In this document: positions 15,873 to 34,278 of the stretch, one piece after another
How positions within the stretch are numbered: the first letter of the stretch is position 1
Layout: every line of letters begins with the position of its first letter
NCBI GenBank assembly: GCA_900316365.1
Contig: ONCO01000007.1
Coordinates: 62,001 to 126,000 of the forward strand
Direction: 5' to 3'
Length of the DNA: 64,000 nt
DNA from: an uncultured Erysipelotrichaceae bacterium
Lineage (GTDB): Bacteria; Bacillota_I; Bacilli_A; RFN20; CAG-826
Position numbers and translations under genes: made by a program
Notes under the pieces: generated by a model
The model's input: only the letters and a program-made list of their open reading frames with translations
What the model was told of the DNA's origin: nothing
The model's database searches: none

Positions 15873-16751
15873 ATGAAATGGACGTTTGAGCAGAAGCTGG
15901 CGTGGGCCAAGGCGTACATCGCGGGGGAGTCCGTCCCTATCCCAATCGGTTTTTCTGGATCCGTGAAGAAGTGGCATAAGAAGGTCATGGAGTGGGTCCA
16001 TGTGCTTTCGGAGTACGGCGAGGAGGGGCTGAATCCTTCCGGCCGTCATCGGTCCTTCTCGCCGGAACTTAAGCTCGCGGCCGTCGAGCGCGTCCTGTCC
16101 GGCGAATCGTCCCGCGCGGTCGCCTACTCGCTTGGAATGCCCAACAATATGTCCGTGCTGTCGTGGCTGCGCGCCTATCGCGAAAAAGGCTACGAGGGAC
16201 TACAATCTAAGCCGAAAGGCAGGAAGAAGCATGCCGAAGAAGAAGCCCAAATCCCCGGAGTCCCTCGAGCTGGAGAGGCTCAGGCGGGAGAACTACATGC
16301 TGACCCTCGAGAACGCCTACTTAAAAAACTTGAGGGCCTTGGTGGAATCGGAGGAGCGAAGCCGAGGAGCGAAGCCAAGGCAGAGATACGAAGCGATCCT
16401 CCAGACCAAAGGGGAATTCGAAGAAGCCGGACTGAGCGAGCTGCTCTCCGTCGCCGGCCTCCCCAAATCCACCTACTTCTACGAGGCCAAAAGGCGCGAT
16501 TTCGACGCGAAGAACGCCGGCCTGATCGGGGAAATCGAAAGGATATTCGCCTCGTCCAGGGGCCGTTACGGGGTCAGGCGGGTGGCAGCGGAGCTGCGTT
16601 CCCTCGGCTTCGCCGTCAACCACAAGAAGGTGCAGAGGCTGATGAGGAAGGCGGGCCTTTCGGCGAAGAGGAAAACCGTCCATTACAACTCCTACAGAGG
16701 GAGCGTCGGGAAGGTCGCGGACGACCTGATCATCGCCGAATACGTCCGTAA
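15873..16751 (+). CDS. IS3-family transposase OrfA (frame runs past its natural end)
   Basis: Residues 1-120 are OrfA: two helix-turn-helix blocks (about 5-55 and 60-110, with RAVAYSLGMPNNMSVLSWLRAYREKGYEGL) that bind the IS ends. After GRKK (about 16230) the normal OrfA leucine zipper is found in the other frame, so the remaining 170 residues of this frame are not meaningful. GGAGGG precedes the ATG. The true product is probably either a short OrfA or a fusion with OrfB. Confidence 0.7.
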   Translation: MKWTFEQKLAWAKAYIAGESVPIPIGFSGSVKKWHKKVMEWVHVLSEYGEEGLNPSGRHRSFSPELKLAAVERVLSGESSRAVAYSLGMPNNMSVLSWLRAYREKGYEGLQSKPKGRKKHAEEEAQIPGVPRAGEAQAGELHADPRERLLKKLEGLGGIGGAKPRSEAKAEIRSDPPDQRGIRRSRTERAALRRRPPQIHLLLRGQKARFRREERRPDRGNRKDIRLVQGPLRGQAGGSGAAFPRLRRQPQEGAEADEEGGPFGEEENRPLQLLQRERREGRGRPDHRRIRP

Positions 16752-17316
16752 GGACGGGCAGGTCCATCACAAATCCGACTTCTCGTGCACGGGGCCGAAC
16801 CAGAAATGGACGACCGACGTGAGCCAATTCACCCTCCCGTGGGGGAAATGCTACCTGAGCCCCATAAAGGACATGTACGACGGCAGGATCGTCGCCTACG
16901 ACCTCAGCCTCCGCGCGGACATGTCGCAGGCCAAGAGGATGCTCGACAGGGCGTTCTCCCTCGGGTACGACCTGAGCGGCCTCATATTCCATTCCGACCA
17001 GGGCTGGCAATACCAGCAAAACTGGTACGTGGAGCGGCTGAGAGGCAGGGGGATCCTCCAATCGATGTCGAGGAAGGGCAACTGCCTCGACAACTGCATA
17101 ATGGAATCCTTCTTCGGCACGATGAAGAACGAGATGCTCTATGGGCACGAATCGGAATACCGGAGCTTCGAATCGTTCGCGAAGGCGGTCGAAGAGTACA
17201 TCGCCTGGTACAACAAGACGAGGATCAGGTACCAAAAGGGCATGAAAAAATGGATGCCCCCTTTGGCCTGCTTCGAGGCAAGCTTCGGTGGACATCCATG
17301 CGGAGCGTCGTTATGA
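16231..17316 (+). CDS. IS3-family transposase OrfB (integrase catalytic domain)
   Basis: A 361-residue frame starting MPKKKPKSPESLE. It begins with the leucine-zipper segment LERLRRENYMLTLENAYLKN, which in most relatives belongs to OrfA, then the HTH_21 region (GRYGVRRVAAELRSLG) and the DDE integrase core: Asp in KWTTDVSQF, Asp in IFHSDQGWQYQ and Glu in DNCIMESFFGTMKNE, all present. ATG 16231 follows AGGAAG and may be a reinitiation start; the frame is open back to 16132. The frame is +1 relative to OrfA, not the -1 usual in this family. Confidence 0.85.
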   Translation: MPKKKPKSPESLELERLRRENYMLTLENAYLKNLRALVESEERSRGAKPRQRYEAILQTKGEFEEAGLSELLSVAGLPKSTYFYEAKRRDFDAKNAGLIGEIERIFASSRGRYGVRRVAAELRSLGFAVNHKKVQRLMRKAGLSAKRKTVHYNSYRGSVGKVADDLIIAEYVRKDGQVHHKSDFSCTGPNQKWTTDVSQFTLPWGKCYLSPIKDMYDGRIVAYDLSLRADMSQAKRMLDRAFSLGYDLSGLIFHSDQGWQYQQNWYVERLRGRGILQSMSRKGNCLDNCIMESFFGTMKNEMLYGHESEYRSFESFAKAVEEYIAWYNKTRIRYQKGMKKWMPPLACFEASFGGHPCGASL

Positions 17317-17983: not shown

Positions 17984-19939
17984 ATGAAAGAATTCCTACT
18001 CCTAAATGGTTTTAATATTGCCGCTTTTATGTTGGCGCTCCTGATAATTGGCTATGTCATTCTCGGCGGCGGCCTTAAGAGTTTTCATAGGCGCGTTTTC
18101 CTCTATTTACTCTTACATATTTGCCTCTCTTCCCTCTTAGCGATGATTAGCTGGTTTATGCAGCCGTTCGTTAAAGTTTCCGATGGGCAAGGAGCTCTTT
18201 GGTATGTCAGAAAGATCATCGACTGCGCTTATTTCGGGGTCCATATCACCGAGGGCGCTTTCTTTACTTTCCATTTAGGCACTTATCTAGGCACCATGAC
18301 GTGGCGAAAGAGGTCGGTCTATTTCTGGTATCTCTTCCCCCTTGTGGTCGTTTATGCCCTAATATTGATTGATCCATTCTTCAATGTCCTTTTCACCTAT
18401 GTCCCGGTCGATGGTGTCTATGTTTATCAGCGTGGCCCATTCATGCTCCTTATCTACCTCGTCGCCTGCGCTTATTTCGTCCAAGGCGCGGTTATTCTCT
18501 TTATTTACCGTAAAGGCGTCTCCACCAAACTTAGGGTTAAGCTCTTATTCCTTTATTTATGCGCGCTTGTCGGTTTAGCGGTCCAAGGCATTAACGAGAA
18601 CATCCAGATCGAAATCTTCTGCGAGATGCTCGCCGCCTCGGGCTTATTGCTCCTTATCGAAGACCGCGATAAAGACGTCGAAGCCGCTAGCTTGGCCTTG
18701 AATAGAAACGCCCTTATCGCTGACTTCCGCCGCCTTATTTTGACTGAGCATAGATTCACCGCCATCCATATCTGTTTGGATAACATATCGCACTATGTAC
18801 GCGTTCTTTCCGTTGAAGATAGGACCAAGATGTTTAAAGTCATCGTCGATTTCCTTAAGAAGAACAGCGGTGCCGAAGACGTTTATCGTTCGGGTTTATC
18901 CAGTTTCCTTTTCATGCTCGATGGGCAAGATGAGAAACGCGTCCAAGCGGCGATTGATAAGATTCATGCCTTCTTCGCTAACGGGGTGAAGATTGATGAC
19001 TCCATCATCAACTTAGCGGCCACGGTGGCGATTGTTAGGGTTCCAGATGAGATTCCAACCCTCGATGCTCTATTCCAAGTTTTAGAGCTTCCTGAGAACC
19101 TCTCGAATAGAGATTTCGTCGTGGTGCAAGGGGAAGGCTTAGCCTTTGCTAAAAGAAGGCTGGCCGTTGAGAAAGCCATCCGCACGGCGATTAGAAAGAA
19201 TTCCTTCACCCTCTATTACCAACCAATCTATAACCCAAACACCAAGTCCATGGACTATGCCGAAGCCTTGGTTAGGCTCTTCGATCCTGAGGCAGGGGAA
19301 ATCCCGCCTGCGGAATTTATTCCGATTGCCGAGAAATGCGGCCTTATCTGCGAAGTAGGCCGTCAGCTCTTCTTAGAGGCCTGCGAATTCATCGAATCGA
19401 TCGACATGAAGAAATGCGGCCTTGAATTCATTGAGGTCAACTTATCGCCTCTTCAGCTTTATTGCGAAGGCTTAGCCCAGGATTTCCTTGCCATGATGGA
19501 AGAACACCATGTCGACCCGCATCATATCAATCTCGAGGTCACGGAAGCGGTGGCCCTTAAGTCCTCTAAGATCTGCCGGGAGAATGTCGCTATGTTGATG
19601 GAAAAAGGCGTCACCTTCTCTCTTGATGACTTTGGTTCTGGCTATGCCAACTTCCAGACCCTTGCCGCCCTTGATTTCAATAACATCAAGGTCGACATGG
19701 ATATCCTCCGCCTCATCAAGACCGATAGCTCCGCCAAACGAGTTTATGAGGCCGTGGTTAAATCCCTCCGCGATGATGTCGCCATCATCCAGGAAGGCGT
19801 TGAGACCCAGGAAGAACTCGATTACGTTTTGGGCATCAACCCAGCGATGCGAATCCAAGGATTCTATTTCTCCAAGCCTTTACCGGCCAAAGATTTCTTA
19901 GACTATCTCAAAGACTTCAAGGCAAATCCAAAGGAATAA
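17984..19939 (+). CDS. Membrane c-di-GMP phosphodiesterase (EAL) with degenerate GGDEF
   Basis: A 651-residue protein. Residues 1-230 hold about seven membrane helices, like a 7TM sensor domain. Residues about 245-385 form a GGDEF-like fold in which the catalytic motif is replaced by RSGLSSF, so it should not make c-di-GMP. Residues about 395-645 are an EAL domain with AEALVR, EVNLSP, LEVTEA, DDFGSGYANF, IKVD, EGVET and QGFYFSKPL, all key residues present, so it should hydrolyse c-di-GMP to pGpG. It points to c-di-GMP signalling in this organism, possibly tied to the surface-protein operon at 25 kb. Confidence 0.9.
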   Translation: MKEFLLLNGFNIAAFMLALLIIGYVILGGGLKSFHRRVFLYLLLHICLSSLLAMISWFMQPFVKVSDGQGALWYVRKIIDCAYFGVHITEGAFFTFHLGTYLGTMTWRKRSVYFWYLFPLVVVYALILIDPFFNVLFTYVPVDGVYVYQRGPFMLLIYLVACAYFVQGAVILFIYRKGVSTKLRVKLLFLYLCALVGLAVQGINENIQIEIFCEMLAASGLLLLIEDRDKDVEAASLALNRNALIADFRRLILTEHRFTAIHICLDNISHYVRVLSVEDRTKMFKVIVDFLKKNSGAEDVYRSGLSSFLFMLDGQDEKRVQAAIDKIHAFFANGVKIDDSIINLAATVAIVRVPDEIPTLDALFQVLELPENLSNRDFVVVQGEGLAFAKRRLAVEKAIRTAIRKNSFTLYYQPIYNPNTKSMDYAEALVRLFDPEAGEIPPAEFIPIAEKCGLICEVGRQLFLEACEFIESIDMKKCGLEFIEVNLSPLQLYCEGLAQDFLAMMEEHHVDPHHINLEVTEAVALKSSKICRENVAMLMEKGVTFSLDDFGSGYANFQTLAALDFNNIKVDMDILRLIKTDSSAKRVYEAVVKSLRDDVAIIQEGVETQEELDYVLGINPAMRIQGFYFSKPLPAKDFLDYLKDFKANPKE

Positions 19940-25242: not shown

Positions 25243-25260
25243 GCTAATCAATTCTCCCTG

Positions 25261-25290
25261 ACGCATCGCCCCTCGGCGGTGCGTTTTTCT
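25261..25290 (+). terminator. Terminator before the surface-protein operon
   Basis: ACGCATCGCC pairs with GGCGGTGCGT (one wobble) with a four-base loop, then TTTTCTTT. Confidence 0.85.
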
Positions 25291-25368: not shown

Positions 25369-25482
25369 TATAATAGGGGTGAGCAAGAATCTATCAGTTC
25401 TTGAACGCCCACTGAAAAACATGGCTTCAAATCGAGCTTTTTGCATTTTTCAGGTAACCAAAAAGTAGAAAGGGGCGTTTTG
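25369..25482 (+). promoter_or_regulatory. Promoter box and structured leader of the surface-protein operon
   Basis: TATAAT at 25369-25374 is followed by a leader of about 100 bases with two stem-loops: CAAGAA/TTCTTG (25384-25403) and CTGAAAAA/TTTTTCAG (25412-25453, 26-base loop). No good -35 box is seen. The ribosome site AAAGGGG lies 7 bases before the ATG. The leader does not match a riboswitch class I know. Confidence 0.5.
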
Positions 25483-26331
25483 ATGAGCGGGTATCGCAAA
25501 AGGATAACGAGGAAAATGATGGCGCTTATGTGCTCTCTTTTGCTTGCGTCCAGCGCTCTTGCGGTAACCACCTACGCTTGGTTCGCCACGAACCATATCG
25601 TCCGCGCGACCGGCATGACCGTCTCCGCCAAGTCCCAAGAACCTCTTTCCGTCCAGCTTTACTATTACAACGGCAATTTCGCCGATGATCCTAACTACGC
25701 TAACCCGACCAAGGCCCCGCATGGCTATTTAAGCGCGAGCTCCTTCAGCGGGACTTTTGCTTCTAATTTCACCGCCGTCAGTGGCAACAATGATTATCAG
25801 ACTTCCAGCGCCGGCTTATACCCAGGCCGCAAATTGACTTATGCGGTGGTGGTCGGCAATGGTGGAGACTCTTCCCTTAGCATCGGCTGCTCCATCACTG
25901 ACTTCGATTCCGATCCGGGCAATTCCTATATCGCCGAAAGTGAGGATGAGCCAATCCTTCTTTCCTATGCGATTGATGTCCATTGCGACTATTGCCCATA
26001 CAATGCGGTCAACACCTATGTCGTCAATTACATGACTAATGACTATATCCCAGCCTTGTCCCATAGCAGCCAGTATGACGCGAATGGGGCCAAAGACTTA
26101 TTCAACGTCAATACTGCCAATCCAGGCACTATCGACTTGCTTAGCAACGCATCCTTAGGCACCGAAGGCATGGTCATCTTCTTCACGGTCATCTTCAGCG
26201 ATGCCTCCTCGACTTACTATTCCTACGTTTCGACGACTTCTAATAAGAACTATTACGAGAAAACCGTTTCGGGCGATAGCAACTGCTATATGTCCCTCTC
26301 GTTCCAATTGAAAGAGATGTTGGTGGGCTGA
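25483..26331 (+). CDS. Secreted TasA/SipW-type small protein
   Basis: A 282-residue exported protein. A basic N-terminus (SGYRKRITRKMM) and hydrophobic helix are followed by TTYAWFAT, the pattern of SipW-type signal peptides found in TasA-like biofilm-fibre proteins. The mature part is rich in Ser, Asn, Tyr and Thr, typical of an extracellular beta domain. No sortase motif is present. It is the first gene of a four-gene secreted-protein operon and sits one base before the next gene. Fibre formation is inferred from family resemblance. Confidence 0.7.
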   Translation: MSGYRKRITRKMMALMCSLLLASSALAVTTYAWFATNHIVRATGMTVSAKSQEPLSVQLYYYNGNFADDPNYANPTKAPHGYLSASSFSGTFASNFTAVSGNNDYQTSSAGLYPGRKLTYAVVVGNGGDSSLSIGCSITDFDSDPGNSYIAESEDEPILLSYAIDVHCDYCPYNAVNTYVVNYMTNDYIPALSHSSQYDANGAKDLFNVNTANPGTIDLLSNASLGTEGMVIFFTVIFSDASSTYYSYVSTTSNKNYYEKTVSGDSNCYMSLSFQLKEMLVG

Positions 26332-26332
26332 T

Positions 26333-27201
26333 ATGACGTACAGGGCAAAGAGAAAAACCAAGAATCTCATCGCCAGCTTCGCTCTTCTTTTTGCACTCGG
26401 CCTAGGCTCAGTGTGACCGAAACTGATTTCGTTTCCGGCACGATGGGTGTCTCCATCACCAGTGTGACCTCGTATAAATATGTTTACCCCGTCTTCCAGG
26501 GCACAACCTTAATTAATTATGACTCCACAGCTGCCGAAGTAGAGACCGAGGACGTCACGGACTATATGAGCGCCGACGAGAGCGATTTCCTCTCGCTCAA
26601 CAAACTCGACACCACGAAGATTTATTTAAATAACAACGCCTCCAGCGTCATTTCGGAAAACGATATGCGGACGGAGATTGCGGCTCAGAATACCTCTCTC
26701 CTTTTGGAGGTTTCCTTCACTTCCGTCAATACGGAAGACGTCGCTTTTACGCTCATTTCGAATCGCGATGCCGCGGATTCTTTCTCCTATGGCAACACGA
26801 CCGACAATATGTCAGACACCTCTTTGCTTGCGAGCGACTTCCTTTGCTTCAACGCTTTTCTCGACGAAGATTTAAGCGGCGTTAATGTCGGCGAAGGCGA
26901 AGATCTAGATGATGCCATTTGGGAGCATTTCCGCACCCTCCATGCTGGAACGAGTTACGCTAATCGCAGCTTTTTCCATCAAGACGAAAATAGCCATGGT
27001 ACAAAAATCGATGTCTTAAGGACTGAGCTTGCAAAGAATCCGGATACGACCCCTGTAGCGCATAAGTTATATATTTTCGTCGAATATGAGCCTTCGCACG
27101 TTAACCCTTATTTCATAAACGTCGAACGCTTACGTTATTCCTATCATTTAACTAACGATTTTAGCTTTACGCTCGCATTATCATCGGAGGTGGCCTCATG
27201 A
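26333..27201 (+). pseudogene. Second TasA/SipW-type gene, frameshifted at the signal peptide
   Basis: ATG 26333 begins a textbook signal peptide (MTYRAKRKTKNLIAS.. to ALGLGSV) but hits TGA at 26414. The mature protein continues in another frame from about 26413 (TETDFVSGTMGVSI..) for 262 codons to 27201. Relatives have a short aromatic stretch such as TYAYFT between these parts, so a small out-of-frame deletion at the cleavage site is the simplest reading. A sequencing error or programmed shift is possible. The 3' end overlaps the next ATG (ATGA), so the operon context is intact. Confidence 0.65.
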
Positions 27202-30026
27202 AAAAGATAGACCGTCTCCTAACGTTTGGCTGGTGGCTTTGCATCCTCTCGCTTGTGGCCTCGACCGTGGGGCTGGTTTCGCTTGCTGCCTTCGTCAAGA
27301 AGAGCGACGAAAAGACGGGACTTAATGGCGATGTCGGTCTCCGTAATTATTATCAGAAGGGGAGCGGTACCCTTTATGACCCTTTTGTCATCTCTCGCCC
27401 GATTCATTTATACAACCTATCTCGACTCCAGGCCTTAGGTTTATATAGCGACCCATCTTCCCCGAAATACTTCCAGCTTGGCTATGACCCAAATGGCGGA
27501 AGCGACTACGGCTTCTATCGGAGCGATTCCTCCTCCGAAATGGGCGATTATTTGGATATGTCTGCTTATGATGGGAGCACGGAGAGCAAAACCGTCCACC
27601 CCATTGGTTCCGAGGCCTTCCCTTTCTGCGGCAAATTCATCGGCAACAATATGCAGGTTTCCAACCTTCATGTCTTTGGCGACCCGCAGGACGTTGGCGT
27701 TTTCGGCTACACCTATAGCGGCTCTAAGGTTGAGAATGTCTTGTTCGACAATTTAACGATCACCGTCCGCGGTTATGATAACGAGGCCTTCGGCGACTTA
27801 TTCGCCTCGTCAATTTCTCCGAATATCGTCGTCAATAAAGGCGGCGTCCAGGAAGAAGTCGCAAACTCTAGTTCCTTCACCCTCGCTTCTGGCGAAAACC
27901 TCTCCATCTCTTTCGTCGAACCGATCGGCTCACAATATGTGACCCAGATTTCGCCTTCTAGCGAATATTTCCGCGTCTCGACAGATCATAAGACGTTATC
28001 GCTTAACCGCCTGGGCACGTATGATGACTCCCATAACGCCATCTCGGTTTTCGATTTATTCTCCTCCTACCAAGGTTCTTATCCGGCCGCCATCAGTGAC
28101 CGTATTTCCGTTGTTGCCCATAAGATTGCCCAGGGTGTTCCTACCGCCCGCGTCGTTTCGGTTTATAACGCGACCTTCTCCAAGACGAGCGAATCCTCGG
28201 CGATCACCTTATCGATCGCCAAAGCCAATCAAGAGGACCATGGTTGCAACGTCGGCTTCATCATCGGACATTGCAATGGTTCTTTGTCGAATGCCTATGT
28301 CCATAATGGCGTGATGGATATCAACCATCCTTATAGCGGCTATTCAACCTTGCCTCAGAAATCCGAATATGGCTTAATCGGCCTTATCGGTTCCTCGGTC
28401 AATAACAGCTATAAGGGCACATCCGGTACCGCCGGCGTTGAGGGGAACGATAACGGTGTCGTCGATTTCTCCGCCGTTTATGACGATATCGTCGATGAGA
28501 ATGCAAACTTCACCAAGATTGCCGACAACGTATATACCTTCGTTCCGCGCAGCGAGACCGCATATATGGATTACCTCCGTTATCAGCATTCTGGTGACGC
28601 TTATCGCTACACTTACGCCCCCAACACCGTCTCTCTCCGCGGTAGAAGTGCCATTCGCGATAGTTTGGAAAAAGACTACGGCTTAGGCGTTTTCACGATC
28701 GTTACCGACACCATGACTTCCGGTAATGGGGCGACCTATTACAACGAAAACCTCGACAAGTGCATGATCGAGAAAGAAAGCGCCTACCAGGATATTTATT
28801 ACGTCACGGCGGAATGGCAGAACACCAACCTGGATCCCGCGAGCAGTTGGAACGAATACCAGCAGGGCGATTGGCGCGTCCATCCGGGCTATGTCATCCC
28901 GAAAGACTTCGATAGCGAAAGTAACGCCAACTATGAGAAGAACGTAAATTTCATTTTCAAGACCCGCTTGGACGGGGAGAGCAGCCGTTTCTATTTTGCG
29001 GACGCGGATAGCACCTCCATCGGCGGCAATTATCTAACGGAATATTTCCACTCGAAGTTGGTTGATGCAAACGGCAACCCGATTTCCAAAACGAGCGCCA
29101 GCCGCGGCGTCATGATTAAGGATAAGAGCGGCAACAACATTGCCTCCTTCTCCTCTTCTCTCCACCTCCCGAACCAAAGTAACGATGATAGCCAAACCCT
29201 CCATTACATGGTTGATCCGGATAACGATGAGAAGACCCTCATTTCCCGTACCGTCAATTTCTCGATTAAAGCGGAGAAGGCTAACGTTACCGTAGTCGTC
29301 CGTAAAGCCAGCAATCAGCAGAGCAATAGCGCACAGGTTGGCATCTACCGCGTCAATAACATCAATCGCGGGGCCTCTTTGCTCACGGATCGCGATTACT
29401 CCCGTCCCGATTATGCGATGTATATCCCAAGCGATTCCAACTTCGCTTATTTCGATTATCAAAATGGCAAAGTCGGTAACTCGGAGCTAGGCTATTTCCA
29501 GGAATCCCAATATGCGAATATCGCGCATACGAACTCTTCTACGACCGGAAAACTATTTGCCCATACCTTCTGCCTCCCAAAAGGCGATTATGCGATCGCG
29601 GTTCCAAGTAGCGACTGCTATCTCCATTATGTCTGCGCCCAAGGTCAGGATGAAGGTGACTTCGGTACCGCCGGCGTTTTGACTTCGATTATCAACACCA
29701 TCGAGCTCGTCGATTTCGTAAAGGCTCCGATTTATAAGGAGCAAGATGGCTCGATCATCCAGATATTTAGCTTCGATCACCCAGAACTATCCCGTTGCTT
29801 CTTGTCGTTGGACCAAGCCCATGTCTCACACTTTAAATCCGGACATTTGGAACTCGATTTCCATTATGACGATAGTTCTGGTGACTACTATATCGTCGTA
29901 GGGGAAAGCGGGCAGGAAGCGCAAATCCAGACGATGTCCGTCATCAACTACGCAAAGAACAAGATGACCGTGCACTTGATCGATATCGCATCGAGCGAAC
30001 AAACGATTGCTTACCCATCAAGTTAA
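27198..30026 (+). CDS. Large secreted or surface protein (942 residues)
   Basis: The N-terminus has one membrane helix (about 8-33) that can serve as signal or anchor. Next is GSGTLYDPFVISRPIHLYNLSRLQAL, a pattern common at the start of GLUG-type adhesins and surface proteins. Residues 130-560 are beta-rich with recurring GSxVENVxFDNLTI and NVGFIIGHCNGSL units; the rest is polar and Ser/Asn/Tyr rich. No catalytic motif, lipobox or sortase signal is seen. It is coupled to the previous gene by ATGA and to the leucine-rich lipoprotein gene 12 bases later. Cell-surface adhesion is inferred. Confidence 0.7.
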   Translation: MKKIDRLLTFGWWLCILSLVASTVGLVSLAAFVKKSDEKTGLNGDVGLRNYYQKGSGTLYDPFVISRPIHLYNLSRLQALGLYSDPSSPKYFQLGYDPNGGSDYGFYRSDSSSEMGDYLDMSAYDGSTESKTVHPIGSEAFPFCGKFIGNNMQVSNLHVFGDPQDVGVFGYTYSGSKVENVLFDNLTITVRGYDNEAFGDLFASSISPNIVVNKGGVQEEVANSSSFTLASGENLSISFVEPIGSQYVTQISPSSEYFRVSTDHKTLSLNRLGTYDDSHNAISVFDLFSSYQGSYPAAISDRISVVAHKIAQGVPTARVVSVYNATFSKTSESSAITLSIAKANQEDHGCNVGFIIGHCNGSLSNAYVHNGVMDINHPYSGYSTLPQKSEYGLIGLIGSSVNNSYKGTSGTAGVEGNDNGVVDFSAVYDDIVDENANFTKIADNVYTFVPRSETAYMDYLRYQHSGDAYRYTYAPNTVSLRGRSAIRDSLEKDYGLGVFTIVTDTMTSGNGATYYNENLDKCMIEKESAYQDIYYVTAEWQNTNLDPASSWNEYQQGDWRVHPGYVIPKDFDSESNANYEKNVNFIFKTRLDGESSRFYFADADSTSIGGNYLTEYFHSKLVDANGNPISKTSASRGVMIKDKSGNNIASFSSSLHLPNQSNDDSQTLHYMVDPDNDEKTLISRTVNFSIKAEKANVTVVVRKASNQQSNSAQVGIYRVNNINRGASLLTDRDYSRPDYAMYIPSDSNFAYFDYQNGKVGNSELGYFQESQYANIAHTNSSTTGKLFAHTFCLPKGDYAIAVPSSDCYLHYVCAQGQDEGDFGTAGVLTSIINTIELVDFVKAPIYKEQDGSIIQIFSFDHPELSRCFLSLDQAHVSHFKSGHLELDFHYDDSSGDYYIVVGESGQEAQIQTMSVINYAKNKMTVHLIDIASSEQTIAYPSS

Positions 30027-30038
30027 GGAGGAGAGACA

Positions 30039-33000
30039 ATGGAAAAAAGAAAACACGCTTTATCACTATTCTGGTCCTGCTGTCTTTTCGTTGTCCTAAT
30101 GGGCTGCTCCAATAGCGAAATCACGAATAGGGTCCCAGGCAAATATCTTTTAAACGGCAATCTAAGCGATGAAACCGATGCGAATGGCTTTGCTTATTAT
30201 CTTGATGATGGCGAGGCGTATGTCGCGCGTGGCGCGAATACCGAGACTTCGCCGGTGGTTCCTGCTTCCGTCACCCTTGGCGGCGTCGTTTACCCTGTGA
30301 CGGGCGTCTACCATAATGGCTTTGCGAAGAGCAATATCACGAGCATCGATTTGCCTTTATCCATCAAGACCATCGATTACCAAGCCTTTGCGGGCAGTGC
30401 CTTAACGGGCGCGGTCATTCCTTGTAACGTCGAGGCAATGGGTAGTGGCGCCTACATGAACTGCCATCAACTTGCAGTCGCCCAGTTTAAGAATGACGAA
30501 AGCAAGGGCTCAATCACCATCGGCGTATGCGGCGGCCAGGAGACTTCTGGCGGCGTCGTAACGGGATCTTCTCATTTGGCGGCGATTTCGGATTATTGTT
30601 TCTTTAATGACGAGAATCTGACGACCGTTGCTTTGCCGCAGTCCCTTACGACCGTAAAATCTTCGGCCTTCTCTTGCTGCACCTCCTTAAAGAAGATGGC
30701 TTTCTTAAGCCATTTCACCACGTTAGAGAAATACGCCTTTGAATCCTGCACCGCCTTGGAAGACGTTTATCTCCCGAATTCCTTCACGAGCGCCAGCAAC
30801 GACACTTCTAACTGCGATCCTCATGCCTTCTACCGCGCGAAAGCGAGTTGTATCATCCATCTATCTTCCTTAACCTCGAGTGCCTATGACGTTTGGTACA
30901 ACGCCACCGCATGGAGGAGATATAACGATGGGAATAACGTTTTGACCTTAGCGGCCAGAGAAACGAGCGACATCGGTTTGGGTAGCGACTACCTATATCG
31001 CGTCGAAAACGGCGAGGCGACGTTATTCTCCTACGCCCCATCTTCTTTCCCGGATGACGGCGTCGTCGTTATGCCGAATATGATTGATGGCTATGCCGTT
31101 GCAAAGGCGGACGCCACAACCTATGCCGCCTATAAGACGCAGATTGAAGAGATCTATCTTTCCCATAACCTTCGTGAAATCAGCAACTCCTTCTTCGACG
31201 GTTGGACTGCCTTACAGACGATTTCCACGACGGGGGACGGCTGCTATGTCCCGACGGATAACGTCATCGATTTGAGCGGCATGGTCCAGCTTGACCGAGC
31301 GGGGCAGCATCTTTTCAATAATGCCACCTACATGAATAACACCTTCGCAGGTAGATTGATCCTACCTTCTTGCTTACGCACGATTGATTCCGGTGCTTTC
31401 CGTAACTTAAAGAAGGCGACCTCAATCGAAATCGACGCGGATGATCCAAGTGATTCGCAGCTTGAATTAATTGGCGAACTCGCCTTCGAGAGTTTCGGCG
31501 CGAACATCAGTAGCAATCGCGGCGACTCTCTCTCCAATTATTTCTCTTTGACTCTTCCGGCCTCTTGCACCAGCATCAACTACCGTGCGTTTAACGGTGT
31601 TTGCGGTTTGAAGAAAATCGAATTCTTAGGCGCGAGCGGCAAATCCCTATCGATCGGCAACCAAGCTTTCTACCGTTGCCATTCCCTCTCGGAGATTATT
31701 TTCCCTAAGGAAGATGACTCCGTGGCGATTGCCGAAAAGGCCTTCTACCAATGCTCCGCCGGGGCGTTCTTTGGTTTCTCCAATATCAGCGGCATCGAGG
31801 AAGTCTATATCCCGGCAAACGTCACTTCGATTGGCTCAAAAGCCTTCGGGAACAATGAGCGCGCCATCTTCTATTTCGAATCCACAAACCCAACGGGAGT
31901 CCATTCTGAGTTTAACTATGTCGCTGGGGAAAAATTCAAAGATCAAAGCGATAGGGACGGTAGTCTTTATTCCAAACATGAAGCCTCCTTCATCGGTTAC
32001 CTTGAACATGCGCCTGTCTATTATGGCGTCGGCTATATGGATGGCTCGACCTCCAGCAAACGCCGCTACTTGAGGACGGAAGATTTTGGCTTCGTCGAAA
32101 CCGCAATCGGTTCGGGTGAATTTATCTGCGCCAAATATCTCTATCGCCCAGAAAACTTAGCCAAGAACGCCCATGTGACCGTCACTGTCCCTGAGCGAAT
32201 CAAATATAGCGTGGGAGGGGTAAACCCGTGCGATGGCGAAACCGGAGCTTCGGCCGACTTTAAAGTCCTTTCCGTCGGCGATAGCTGCTTCGCCGCCTGT
32301 TATTCCCGCGGTGGCAAATACCTTTCTAGCGTGAATGTCCCGCATGCGATCGTCCGCATCGGCGATAACGCCTTTGCCCGCTCCATCTTCTTCTATCAGC
32401 TGAACTCTTATACGGGTAACACGATTGATGCGAATAACTTCCCATCCTCTTTGAAATATATCGGGCGCAGCGCCTTTATCATGACGCGCCTCCGTGATGC
32501 GTTAAATATTCCAGGCGACGTCTTAACCTTCGATATGATTGATGAGACTGATTTGGCGAATCAGAGAACGCCGATTAATTACGCGAACCTAGATAACGCC
32601 TCACCACGTTTATATAGCGTCAGCGAAGCCGAGCCTCGCCGCTATAGCACTATCTTTGCCAATGACTGGTTCTTAAGGAATATCACCTTCACGACCGTCG
32701 CCAATCCAAATTTCGCCTTTGATTCCTCCATCGGCGCTTTCTACCGCTTAAGGAAGATTTCTGTGGATGGGAACAGTTCCCTGCTTAGCGATGACATCCA
32801 ATTACTCATGGTCAAGGCAAAACTGAAAGACACCTACCTCAATAACGCCACCGCGGATGTATCGGCGGATAAAGAGAATAACATCGATATCCAAGATATT
32901 ACTTTGGGGGACAACACCCATCCGTTCATGAGCGGCATGACCTCGATTCATTATGGCGCCTTCAAGATTGCTACGTGGTTCCGCGGCTTGATTCTTGATA

Positions 33001-34244
33001 CCGCGGTCGACATCTTTCCCCGTCGCTGGAATAGCACGGAACTCCTTCCGCAAAACTTATTCCTCGGTCGTAACCAGTTAAAGACCTATGCCGATATCGG
33101 CGAAAAAGATAATGACTATAGTTATGCCGTCGCCATCCAAACGCTCCGATTTAAGAATAGTGCCGCAACCTTCGCTCTTCCGAACGTCATTGCTAGATGC
33201 TGCACCAATCTCACGAGCCTTGAGATTCCAAATAACCTCACCGTCATTCCGCAGAATGCCTTTGACCGTGCCGAGAAGATCTCGACTTGGACAACGCCAA
33301 ATGCCAGTGGTGTCTTGACTGTCGGCGGGGAGACGGGACGCACCAGGGTCTTGGACCTCCGCTATAATACCAACCTCACCAAGATTGGCGAATCCTCTTT
33401 CTACGGCGCGAAAGGCATCGATGAACTTTACCTCGGTTCCAGTTTAACAAGCATCGAACAAAAGGCTTGGTATAACGCCACCAGCATCCAGAAGGTCGAT
33501 ATGTCATCCTGTACTTCCTTAACATCGGCCTTAAACAACCAGACGTTCTTAGGGTGCACTTCCTTAACGGAAGTCGCCTTGCCGCCTAACATCACGACAA
33601 TCCTCAACGAATGCTTTTCTAGTGCCCCGATCACTAGCCTCACCTGGCCAAGCGGCAATGCCTTAACGAAGTTAGAGACTTCTTGCTTTAAAGGGAATCG
33701 CCTCGAAGTGTTGGAGATTCCTGATTCGGTGGAGACAATTGGTAAGACAGTCTTCCAAGACGGCACCGCCACGACGATTGTCCGTCTCCCGACAAGTCTT
33801 TCGAAGATTGATTCAACCTCTTTCTCGAATAATACCGCGCTCAACCAGGTCTTTTTCTCGGACGCCAGGACGAGCCGTGCTGCCGCGAAGGTCACCATCG
33901 CCGAAGGAACATTTGGCCCGAATGTCAAATATGCGATCATCCCGAACTTTGTCACCTTTGCGAGCAAGCCGTTTAAGACTTGCACCGCGCTTCAAGGCGT
34001 TTTCTATGGCCGTAAATACAGCGAAATCAGCGCCAGCGAAACTACTAAAGGCTTGGCGACTTACAATAATAACGCTTCGACGGCGACGCTATATTATTAC
34101 GCCGAAAGTGTGAGCGACATGACTGCCGATGTCTCCTATTGGCGGTACAAAGGAAGTAGCAAAACAATCGTTGAGGTCATCACCAAAAACGGCGATACGA
34201 TCACCCCAGTTGCCGAATACGATTTCTCAACTTATATCTCATAA
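30039..34244 (+). CDS. BspA-type leucine-rich-repeat lipoprotein (1401 residues)
   Basis: A very large lipoprotein. The signal ends in the lipobox LMGC (Cys near residue 23). The body is built of many degenerate LRR_5 repeats, for example SIDLPLSIKTIDYQAFAGSAL, then TLPASCTSINYRAFNG, EIPNNLTVIPQNAF and EIPDSVETIGKTVFQ. Such BspA-like proteins bind host or microbial surfaces. AAGGAGG precedes the ATG. It is the last gene of the operon and is followed by a terminator. The repeats are unevenly spaced, with long inserts at about 270-340 and 640-770. Confidence 0.85.
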   Translation: MEKRKHALSLFWSCCLFVVLMGCSNSEITNRVPGKYLLNGNLSDETDANGFAYYLDDGEAYVARGANTETSPVVPASVTLGGVVYPVTGVYHNGFAKSNITSIDLPLSIKTIDYQAFAGSALTGAVIPCNVEAMGSGAYMNCHQLAVAQFKNDESKGSITIGVCGGQETSGGVVTGSSHLAAISDYCFFNDENLTTVALPQSLTTVKSSAFSCCTSLKKMAFLSHFTTLEKYAFESCTALEDVYLPNSFTSASNDTSNCDPHAFYRAKASCIIHLSSLTSSAYDVWYNATAWRRYNDGNNVLTLAARETSDIGLGSDYLYRVENGEATLFSYAPSSFPDDGVVVMPNMIDGYAVAKADATTYAAYKTQIEEIYLSHNLREISNSFFDGWTALQTISTTGDGCYVPTDNVIDLSGMVQLDRAGQHLFNNATYMNNTFAGRLILPSCLRTIDSGAFRNLKKATSIEIDADDPSDSQLELIGELAFESFGANISSNRGDSLSNYFSLTLPASCTSINYRAFNGVCGLKKIEFLGASGKSLSIGNQAFYRCHSLSEIIFPKEDDSVAIAEKAFYQCSAGAFFGFSNISGIEEVYIPANVTSIGSKAFGNNERAIFYFESTNPTGVHSEFNYVAGEKFKDQSDRDGSLYSKHEASFIGYLEHAPVYYGVGYMDGSTSSKRRYLRTEDFGFVETAIGSGEFICAKYLYRPENLAKNAHVTVTVPERIKYSVGGVNPCDGETGASADFKVLSVGDSCFAACYSRGGKYLSSVNVPHAIVRIGDNAFARSIFFYQLNSYTGNTIDANNFPSSLKYIGRSAFIMTRLRDALNIPGDVLTFDMIDETDLANQRTPINYANLDNASPRLYSVSEAEPRRYSTIFANDWFLRNITFTTVANPNFAFDSSIGAFYRLRKISVDGNSSLLSDDIQLLMVKAKLKDTYLNNATADVSADKENNIDIQDITLGDNTHPFMSGMTSIHYGAFKIATWFRGLILDTAVDIFPRRWNSTELLPQNLFLGRNQLKTYADIGEKDNDYSYAVAIQTLRFKNSAATFALPNVIARCCTNLTSLEIPNNLTVIPQNAFDRAEKISTWTTPNASGVLTVGGETGRTRVLDLRYNTNLTKIGESSFYGAKGIDELYLGSSLTSIEQKAWYNATSIQKVDMSSCTSLTSALNNQTFLGCTSLTEVALPPNITTILNECFSSAPITSLTWPSGNALTKLETSCFKGNRLEVLEIPDSVETIGKTVFQDGTATTIVRLPTSLSKIDSTSFSNNTALNQVFFSDARTSRAAAKVTIAEGTFGPNVKYAIIPNFVTFASKPFKTCTALQGVFYGRKYSEISASETTKGLATYNNNASTATLYYYAESVSDMTADVSYWRYKGSSKTIVEVITKNGDTITPVAEYDFSTYIS

Positions 34245-34249
34245 CTTAG

Positions 34250-34278
34250 GTGCCTAGTCCTCTAGGCACTTTTCTTTT
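34250..34278 (+). terminator. Terminator of the surface-protein operon
   Basis: Perfect GTGCCTAG/CTAGGCAC stem with loop TCCT, then TTTTCTTTT. Confidence 0.9.

Follow-up and report, generated by a model that had tools for sequence, protein, structure and literature searches.

The same-strand array of four genes at 25483-34244 of the window (the whole stretch of 64,000 nt that was analysed) is rather probably a conserved SipW-dependent surface operon whose machine, encoded on another contig of the same genome (C9), drives or gates the export or assembly of proteins with an AWF-type signal-peptide box. A SipW-dependent surface system is well supported, since a peptidase of this type is present elsewhere in the genome and the gene order is conserved in relatives. 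The fibre-plus-adhesin surface system proposed in a sequence-only reading of the window is retained to that extent, but its TasA-type fibre is not. The most fitting place for the operon is on the cargo side of a SipW/CoCoPALM-type system, and the McrB/DUF2357 machine on C9 supplies it with a context that is absent from the window.

The four-gene array and its products

The four genes, termed A to D, all lie on the + strand and are as tightly spaced as had been claimed, with a gap of 1 nt between A and B, an overlap of 4 nt (ATGA) between B and C and a gap of 12 nt between C and D. The features of the region are the following.

25260..25285, + strand: intrinsic terminator of the preceding gene (11-bp stem and T tract), the upstream boundary
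25369..25374, + strand: candidate -10 box TATAAT, perfect, with no good -35 at 16-18 nt (read by eye, missed by the scan)
25483..26331, + strand: gene A, 282 aa, SipW-type signal peptide with TYAWF at 25570-25584
26333..26416, + strand: N-terminal remnant of gene B, MTYRAKRKTKNLIASFALLFALGLGSV then TGA (from frame reading)
26413..27201, + strand: body of gene B, 262 aa, in a different frame, missing the AWF box found in homologues
27198..30026, + strand: gene C, 942 aa, N-terminal helix and conserved motif
30039..34244, + strand: gene D, 1401 aa, BspA-type LRR_5 lipoprotein
34248..34271, + strand: strong intrinsic terminator after D (10-bp stem and T tract)

The sequence-only reading had given the operon one promoter, a structured leader and one terminator. 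The terminator was found after D. For the promoter, a + strand scan for sigma-70-type sites upstream of A passed no site, and the TATAAT box was seen by eye only. The structured leader was not borne out, as its folding was no better than chance (z=-1.29, with 24 of 200 shuffles folding equally well), and a search of the leader and operon against Rfam gave no family above the gathering score.

Gene A carries the mark of SipW-dependent secreted proteins, an AWF-type signal-peptide box with an aromatic residue at P2', and its TYAWF is encoded by the genome's sole T[FY]AWF-coding site. The label 'TasA-type' attached to A and B is without sequence or fold support. Pfam and NCBIfam searches with families A, B and C returned no credible match (for B, Pfam was run on the window copy only), a profile search of the PDB with the three families returned no match, and neither did a fold search of the PDB with the predicted structure of A, a poor model (pLDDT 49). 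Membership of A and B in the TasA/camelysin group was rejected on these results, and similarity between A and B beyond the signal peptide was rejected because hhalign aligned only 43 columns, that is, just the signal peptide. Of the proposed operon of four secreted proteins, two of them TasA/SipW-type, the array and the signal of A are therefore kept, but the TasA label and an intact B are not.

In C, the N-terminal helix ends with SLA/AF and leads into a conserved region with the motif GLRxYxxxGxGTxxDPxVIxRPxHLYNLxRLQxLG...PIGSExxPFxGxFxGN...DVGVFGY; a conserved N-terminal region follows a membrane helix across the homologues. Using a loose pattern, A/S-x-aromatic was found within the hydrophobic helix or directly behind it in 26 of 29 C homologues compared to 1 of 21 D proteins. 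Some distant members of the C family have the plain AWF box and, by the same loose pattern, most close ones have A/S-x-aromatic nearby; in this genome C has only the weaker SLA/AF form, compared to TYAWF in A. As TasA, which is cleaved by SipW, carries Phe at P2' (PMC10269814), C is probably a SipW substrate, judging from its signal region. The predicted structure of C is fair (pLDDT 73). The best-scoring PDB hits to it are CBM6/35-like carbohydrate-binding domains, which at E 1e-4 to 3e-3 and target TM 0.34-0.46 are too weak for a fold to be assigned.

The BspA-type lipoprotein that had been read in D was confirmed by LRR_5 repeats over cut-off (E=1e-83, 277.9 bits, 8 stretches) and a lipobox-like ...VLMGCS with its cysteine. 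D shares these repeats and the lipobox with BspA-type LRR surface proteins and differs from them in closing an operon of SipW-type proteins and the C family.

The signal peptidase cluster on contig C9

The window encodes no SipW peptidase, as had been noted, and a search of the genome matched contigs C9 and C19 only. The check for such an enzyme elsewhere in the genome was thereby answered by a Ser/His SipW-type signal peptidase at C9:4757-5782. Its serine (TDSM/SPSM, xSM) and its histidine, in (S/T)HR, are invariant in 11 homologues, which have hydrophobic segments at both ends. A catalytic Ser and His in place of Lys, with a membrane anchor, is what marks the SipW/ER-type signal peptidases. 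Its scores against TIGR02228 (9e-9, 35.3 of 51.85 bits) and against the SipW model NF046067 (3e-5, 23.7 of 190 bits) are below the curated cut-offs, which makes it a SipW-like, divergent relative and not a SipW in the strict sense. The C19 peptidase (147 aa) was rejected as a partner because it is S24-like and, by reading, lies beside PqqD-like and HPr-kinase-like genes. This C19 region (~176973-180218; loci L001 and L049), in which the small S24/SipW-like peptidase is accompanied by PqqD-like and HPr-kinase-like genes and by an ABC transporter, resembles a peptide-maturation cluster.

The C9 cluster comprises genes for an AWF protein, truncated where the contig ends, an AAA_5 protein, a DUF2357 protein, the SipW-type signal peptidase, an EAL protein and a PNP_UDP_1 protein. 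In relatives, the gene directly upstream of AAA also encodes an AWF protein, to which the C9 fragment is homologous (1e-17 to 1e-8), and the peptidase is encoded next to the McrB/McrC-like pair both in this genome and in the relatives read. The AAA protein has a Walker A motif GISGTGKT, a Walker B motif LDEMN, the NxD motif GTANNDD and a strong transmembrane window at ~61-81; it also matches the candidate anti-phage model PADLOC PDC-M26A. Its McrC-like DUF2357 partner matches PF09823 over cut-off (2.6e-7), and a Pfam search of this 665-aa protein and one homologue detected only DUF2357 and no PD-(D/E)xK nuclease domain. The PNP_UDP_1 protein (phosphorylase superfamily; C9 7343-8056, locus L048, and relatives) is regularly found in the SipW/AAA cluster, where it sits between two EAL or EAL-like proteins.

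This architecture fits that of CoCoPALM, a name given to McrB-like systems that carry the NxD motif, have a membrane segment near the N-terminus and are accompanied by signal peptidases (PMC11090510, 2024). The likeness, read from the proteins, extends to the McrB-like AAA/GTPase protein with its NxD motif and predicted N-terminal transmembrane segment, the McrC-like DUF2357 protein and the associated peptidase. In CoCoPALM that segment is FtsB-like and is joined by a coiled coil; on the C9 protein, the transmembrane window is the part that was seen. The C9 system differs in that AWF proteins, members of the C family, LRR lipoproteins and EAL proteins go with it, and in occurring mostly in uncultured Bacilli. 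The same paper deferred CoCoPALM to a later publication, its main text giving neither cargo nor function, and a search by the name CoCoPALM found no later functional paper in the collection of papers covered.

A c-di-GMP phosphodiesterase had been pointed out 6 kb upstream of the operon, and an EAL protein is indeed encoded there (17984-19939, E=1e-51, ~6 kb upstream). As a link to the operon it is weaker than the EAL protein beside the C9 peptidase, whose motifs look intact and which offers the better connection to c-di-GMP; opposite-strand genes intervene between the upstream EAL gene and the operon. An IS3-like transposase lies at 15873-17316 of the window, read as two overlapping frames in an OrfA/OrfB arrangement.

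Conservation and linkage of operon and machine

A scan of the genome collection found 39 loci with C relatives. Most are in MAGs named uncultured Bacilli, Bacillales or Erysipelotrichaceae, and many of these MAGs come from the rumen or from other samples of animal gut. Gene orders were scored with HMMs built from the operon families across these loci. Searching relatives for the operon, as the sequence-only reading had suggested, showed the order A-B-C-D in 11 other uncultured Bacilli MAGs (L051-L056, L058, L059, L064, L076 and L077). Variant orders elsewhere are B-C-D, A-B-C followed by a different fourth gene, and B-C-D followed by an A-like gene. In L057 and L062 (MAG of another family), the fourth gene encodes a different protein of 1500-1660 aa and C-D units recur in tandem or on further contigs.

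Operon and machine lie together in other genomes. In RUG13318 (L117/L058), a single-strand array begins with four signal-bearing proteins, three of them with WF/WY boxes, and continues as AAA-DUF2357-SipW-EAL-PNP-EAL2-701-A-B-C-D, where 701 is a 701-aa protein. In another MAG (L051/L118), the machine follows downstream of A-B-C-D and shares its strand. The machine array is strand-consistent in several genera, with AAA between AWF genes and SipW, and in Clostridia (L081, L082) AAA is beside SipW and DUF2357.

The AAA protein was found at E<=4.3e-164 in 11 of the 12 genomes carrying the operon or a near variant of it; in the remaining one, G183 (L059), the operon is present without a close AAA. 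In the order sample (147 genomes), AAA was present in 33 of 35 genomes with a C-type protein compared to 6 of 112 others (Fisher 2e-24, kinship not corrected), and the two genes lie <=20 kb apart in 16 genomes. The two C-bearing genomes without AAA are 74-75% complete, and C was not detected in 6 of the 39 AAA genomes of the order. In the phylum sample (245 genomes), AAA was present in 14 of 16 genomes with C, several of the C-type matches being in frames of 4000-6000 aa. The p values exaggerate the association because the thresholds for having AAA and having C were set after the lists were seen and kinship was ignored. Despite this, the linkage of C and AAA spans families and extends to Clostridia. 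The C-type domains within reading frames of ~4000-6000 aa were seen in G350, G322, G326, G330, G341, G236 and G289, several of them ~20-28 kb from the AAA gene.

A model for the system and the lesion in gene B

In the model that we favour, the SipW-type peptidase would cut A, C and the intact B of relatives at signals ending in A/S-x-aromatic, and D would be a lipid-anchored LRR protein. The membrane-bound NxD McrB-like AAA protein, with the DUF2357 protein, on which Pfam detected no nuclease domain, would power or gate the export of AWF proteins or their assembly into a surface structure, of which C and D may form large, probably ligand-binding parts, and the EAL protein of the cluster would tie the system to c-di-GMP. 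The analysis shows the genes, their motifs and conserved order, the genetic linkage and the co-occurrence, whereas we infer cleavage, the formation of a fibre, what the AAA protein does and adhesion. Counting against the model are the failure of A, B and C to match a known fibre protein, the poor model of A without a fold match, the location of operon and machine on different contigs, the operon of G183 without a close AAA, the 6 AAA genomes of the order in which C was not detected, the co-occurrence figures uncorrected for kinship and the PDC-M26A match of the AAA protein. More tentatively, and with some doubt, CoCoPALM in general, so far described just as an offshoot of the McrBC 'restriction' family, might be a nucleotide-driven, c-di-GMP-linked exporter or assembler of SipW-processed surface structures, with A-B-C-D as cargo, and not an immunity system. 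Such a role would suggest that an McrBC-like motor was recruited for surface assembly. The association links three families without annotation (A, B and C) to a machine class named in 2024 without a main-text cargo; and AAA proteins of the C9 type, as the PDC-M26A match indicates, may be scored as phage defence.

It is unlikely that the operon encodes a plain TasA/SipW-like fibre with adhesins and that AAA/DUF2357 is a neighbouring restriction or defence system sharing the locus. LRR and SipW signatures would suffice for a surface role, the AAA protein resembles McrB-type enzymes besides matching the PADLOC model, and its relatives are treated as restriction systems in the CoCoNuT paper. However, the DUF2357 protein has no nuclease domain by Pfam, and the AAA protein, with its transmembrane helix and NxD motif, is placed between AWF genes and SipW in several genera, adjoins SipW and DUF2357 in Clostridia and co-occurs closely with C; nor did the family and profile searches give A or B any TasA-family similarity. 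The B. subtilis SipW/TasA system shares with the present one a Ser/His SipW-type peptidase and secreted proteins with an aromatic residue at P2' of the signal peptide. In contrast to that system, TasA/camelysin similarity was not detected here by Pfam, NCBIfam or PDB profile searches or by the fold search with the poor model of A, the peptidase is on another contig than the operon, and AAA, DUF2357, EAL and PNP genes surround it.

B is not the intact second SipW-type protein that had been described, its frame being split and its AWF box absent. An ATG at 26333, one base past the stop of A, opens a 27-codon frame that ends with TGA at 26414, and the conserved body of B is in another frame, from GTG 26413. 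About 15 residues present in B relatives are absent at the lesion, and nearly all of these relatives have a T-x-A-W-F/I box in that segment; the box and the frame were thus lost in this assembly, from which B cannot be produced as one secreted protein. A further copy of the B region was sought in viral contigs and none was found.

The frameshift and lost signal box in B could also mean that the operon is decaying in this lineage, with B a pseudogene and A, C and D functionless remnants. We regard this as quite improbable: A, C, D and the entire body of B have open frames that retain residues invariant in their families, and no damage is apparent in the machine genes read on C9, of which the first and the last run off the contig. 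An assembly error or very recent lesion would give an identical picture at B. Production of B as a single protein by programmed frameshifting is scarcely credible, for although the shift is early in B and the frame downstream is fully open, no standard -1 slippery heptamer was seen by eye at the junction, B homologues are single-frame and their AWF segment is physically absent here. A 10-nt direct repeat, CAGTGTGACC, lies beside the lesion at 26409 and 26460 and was set aside as a clue to its origin, as repeats of this kind turn up roughly once in every kb of this DNA.
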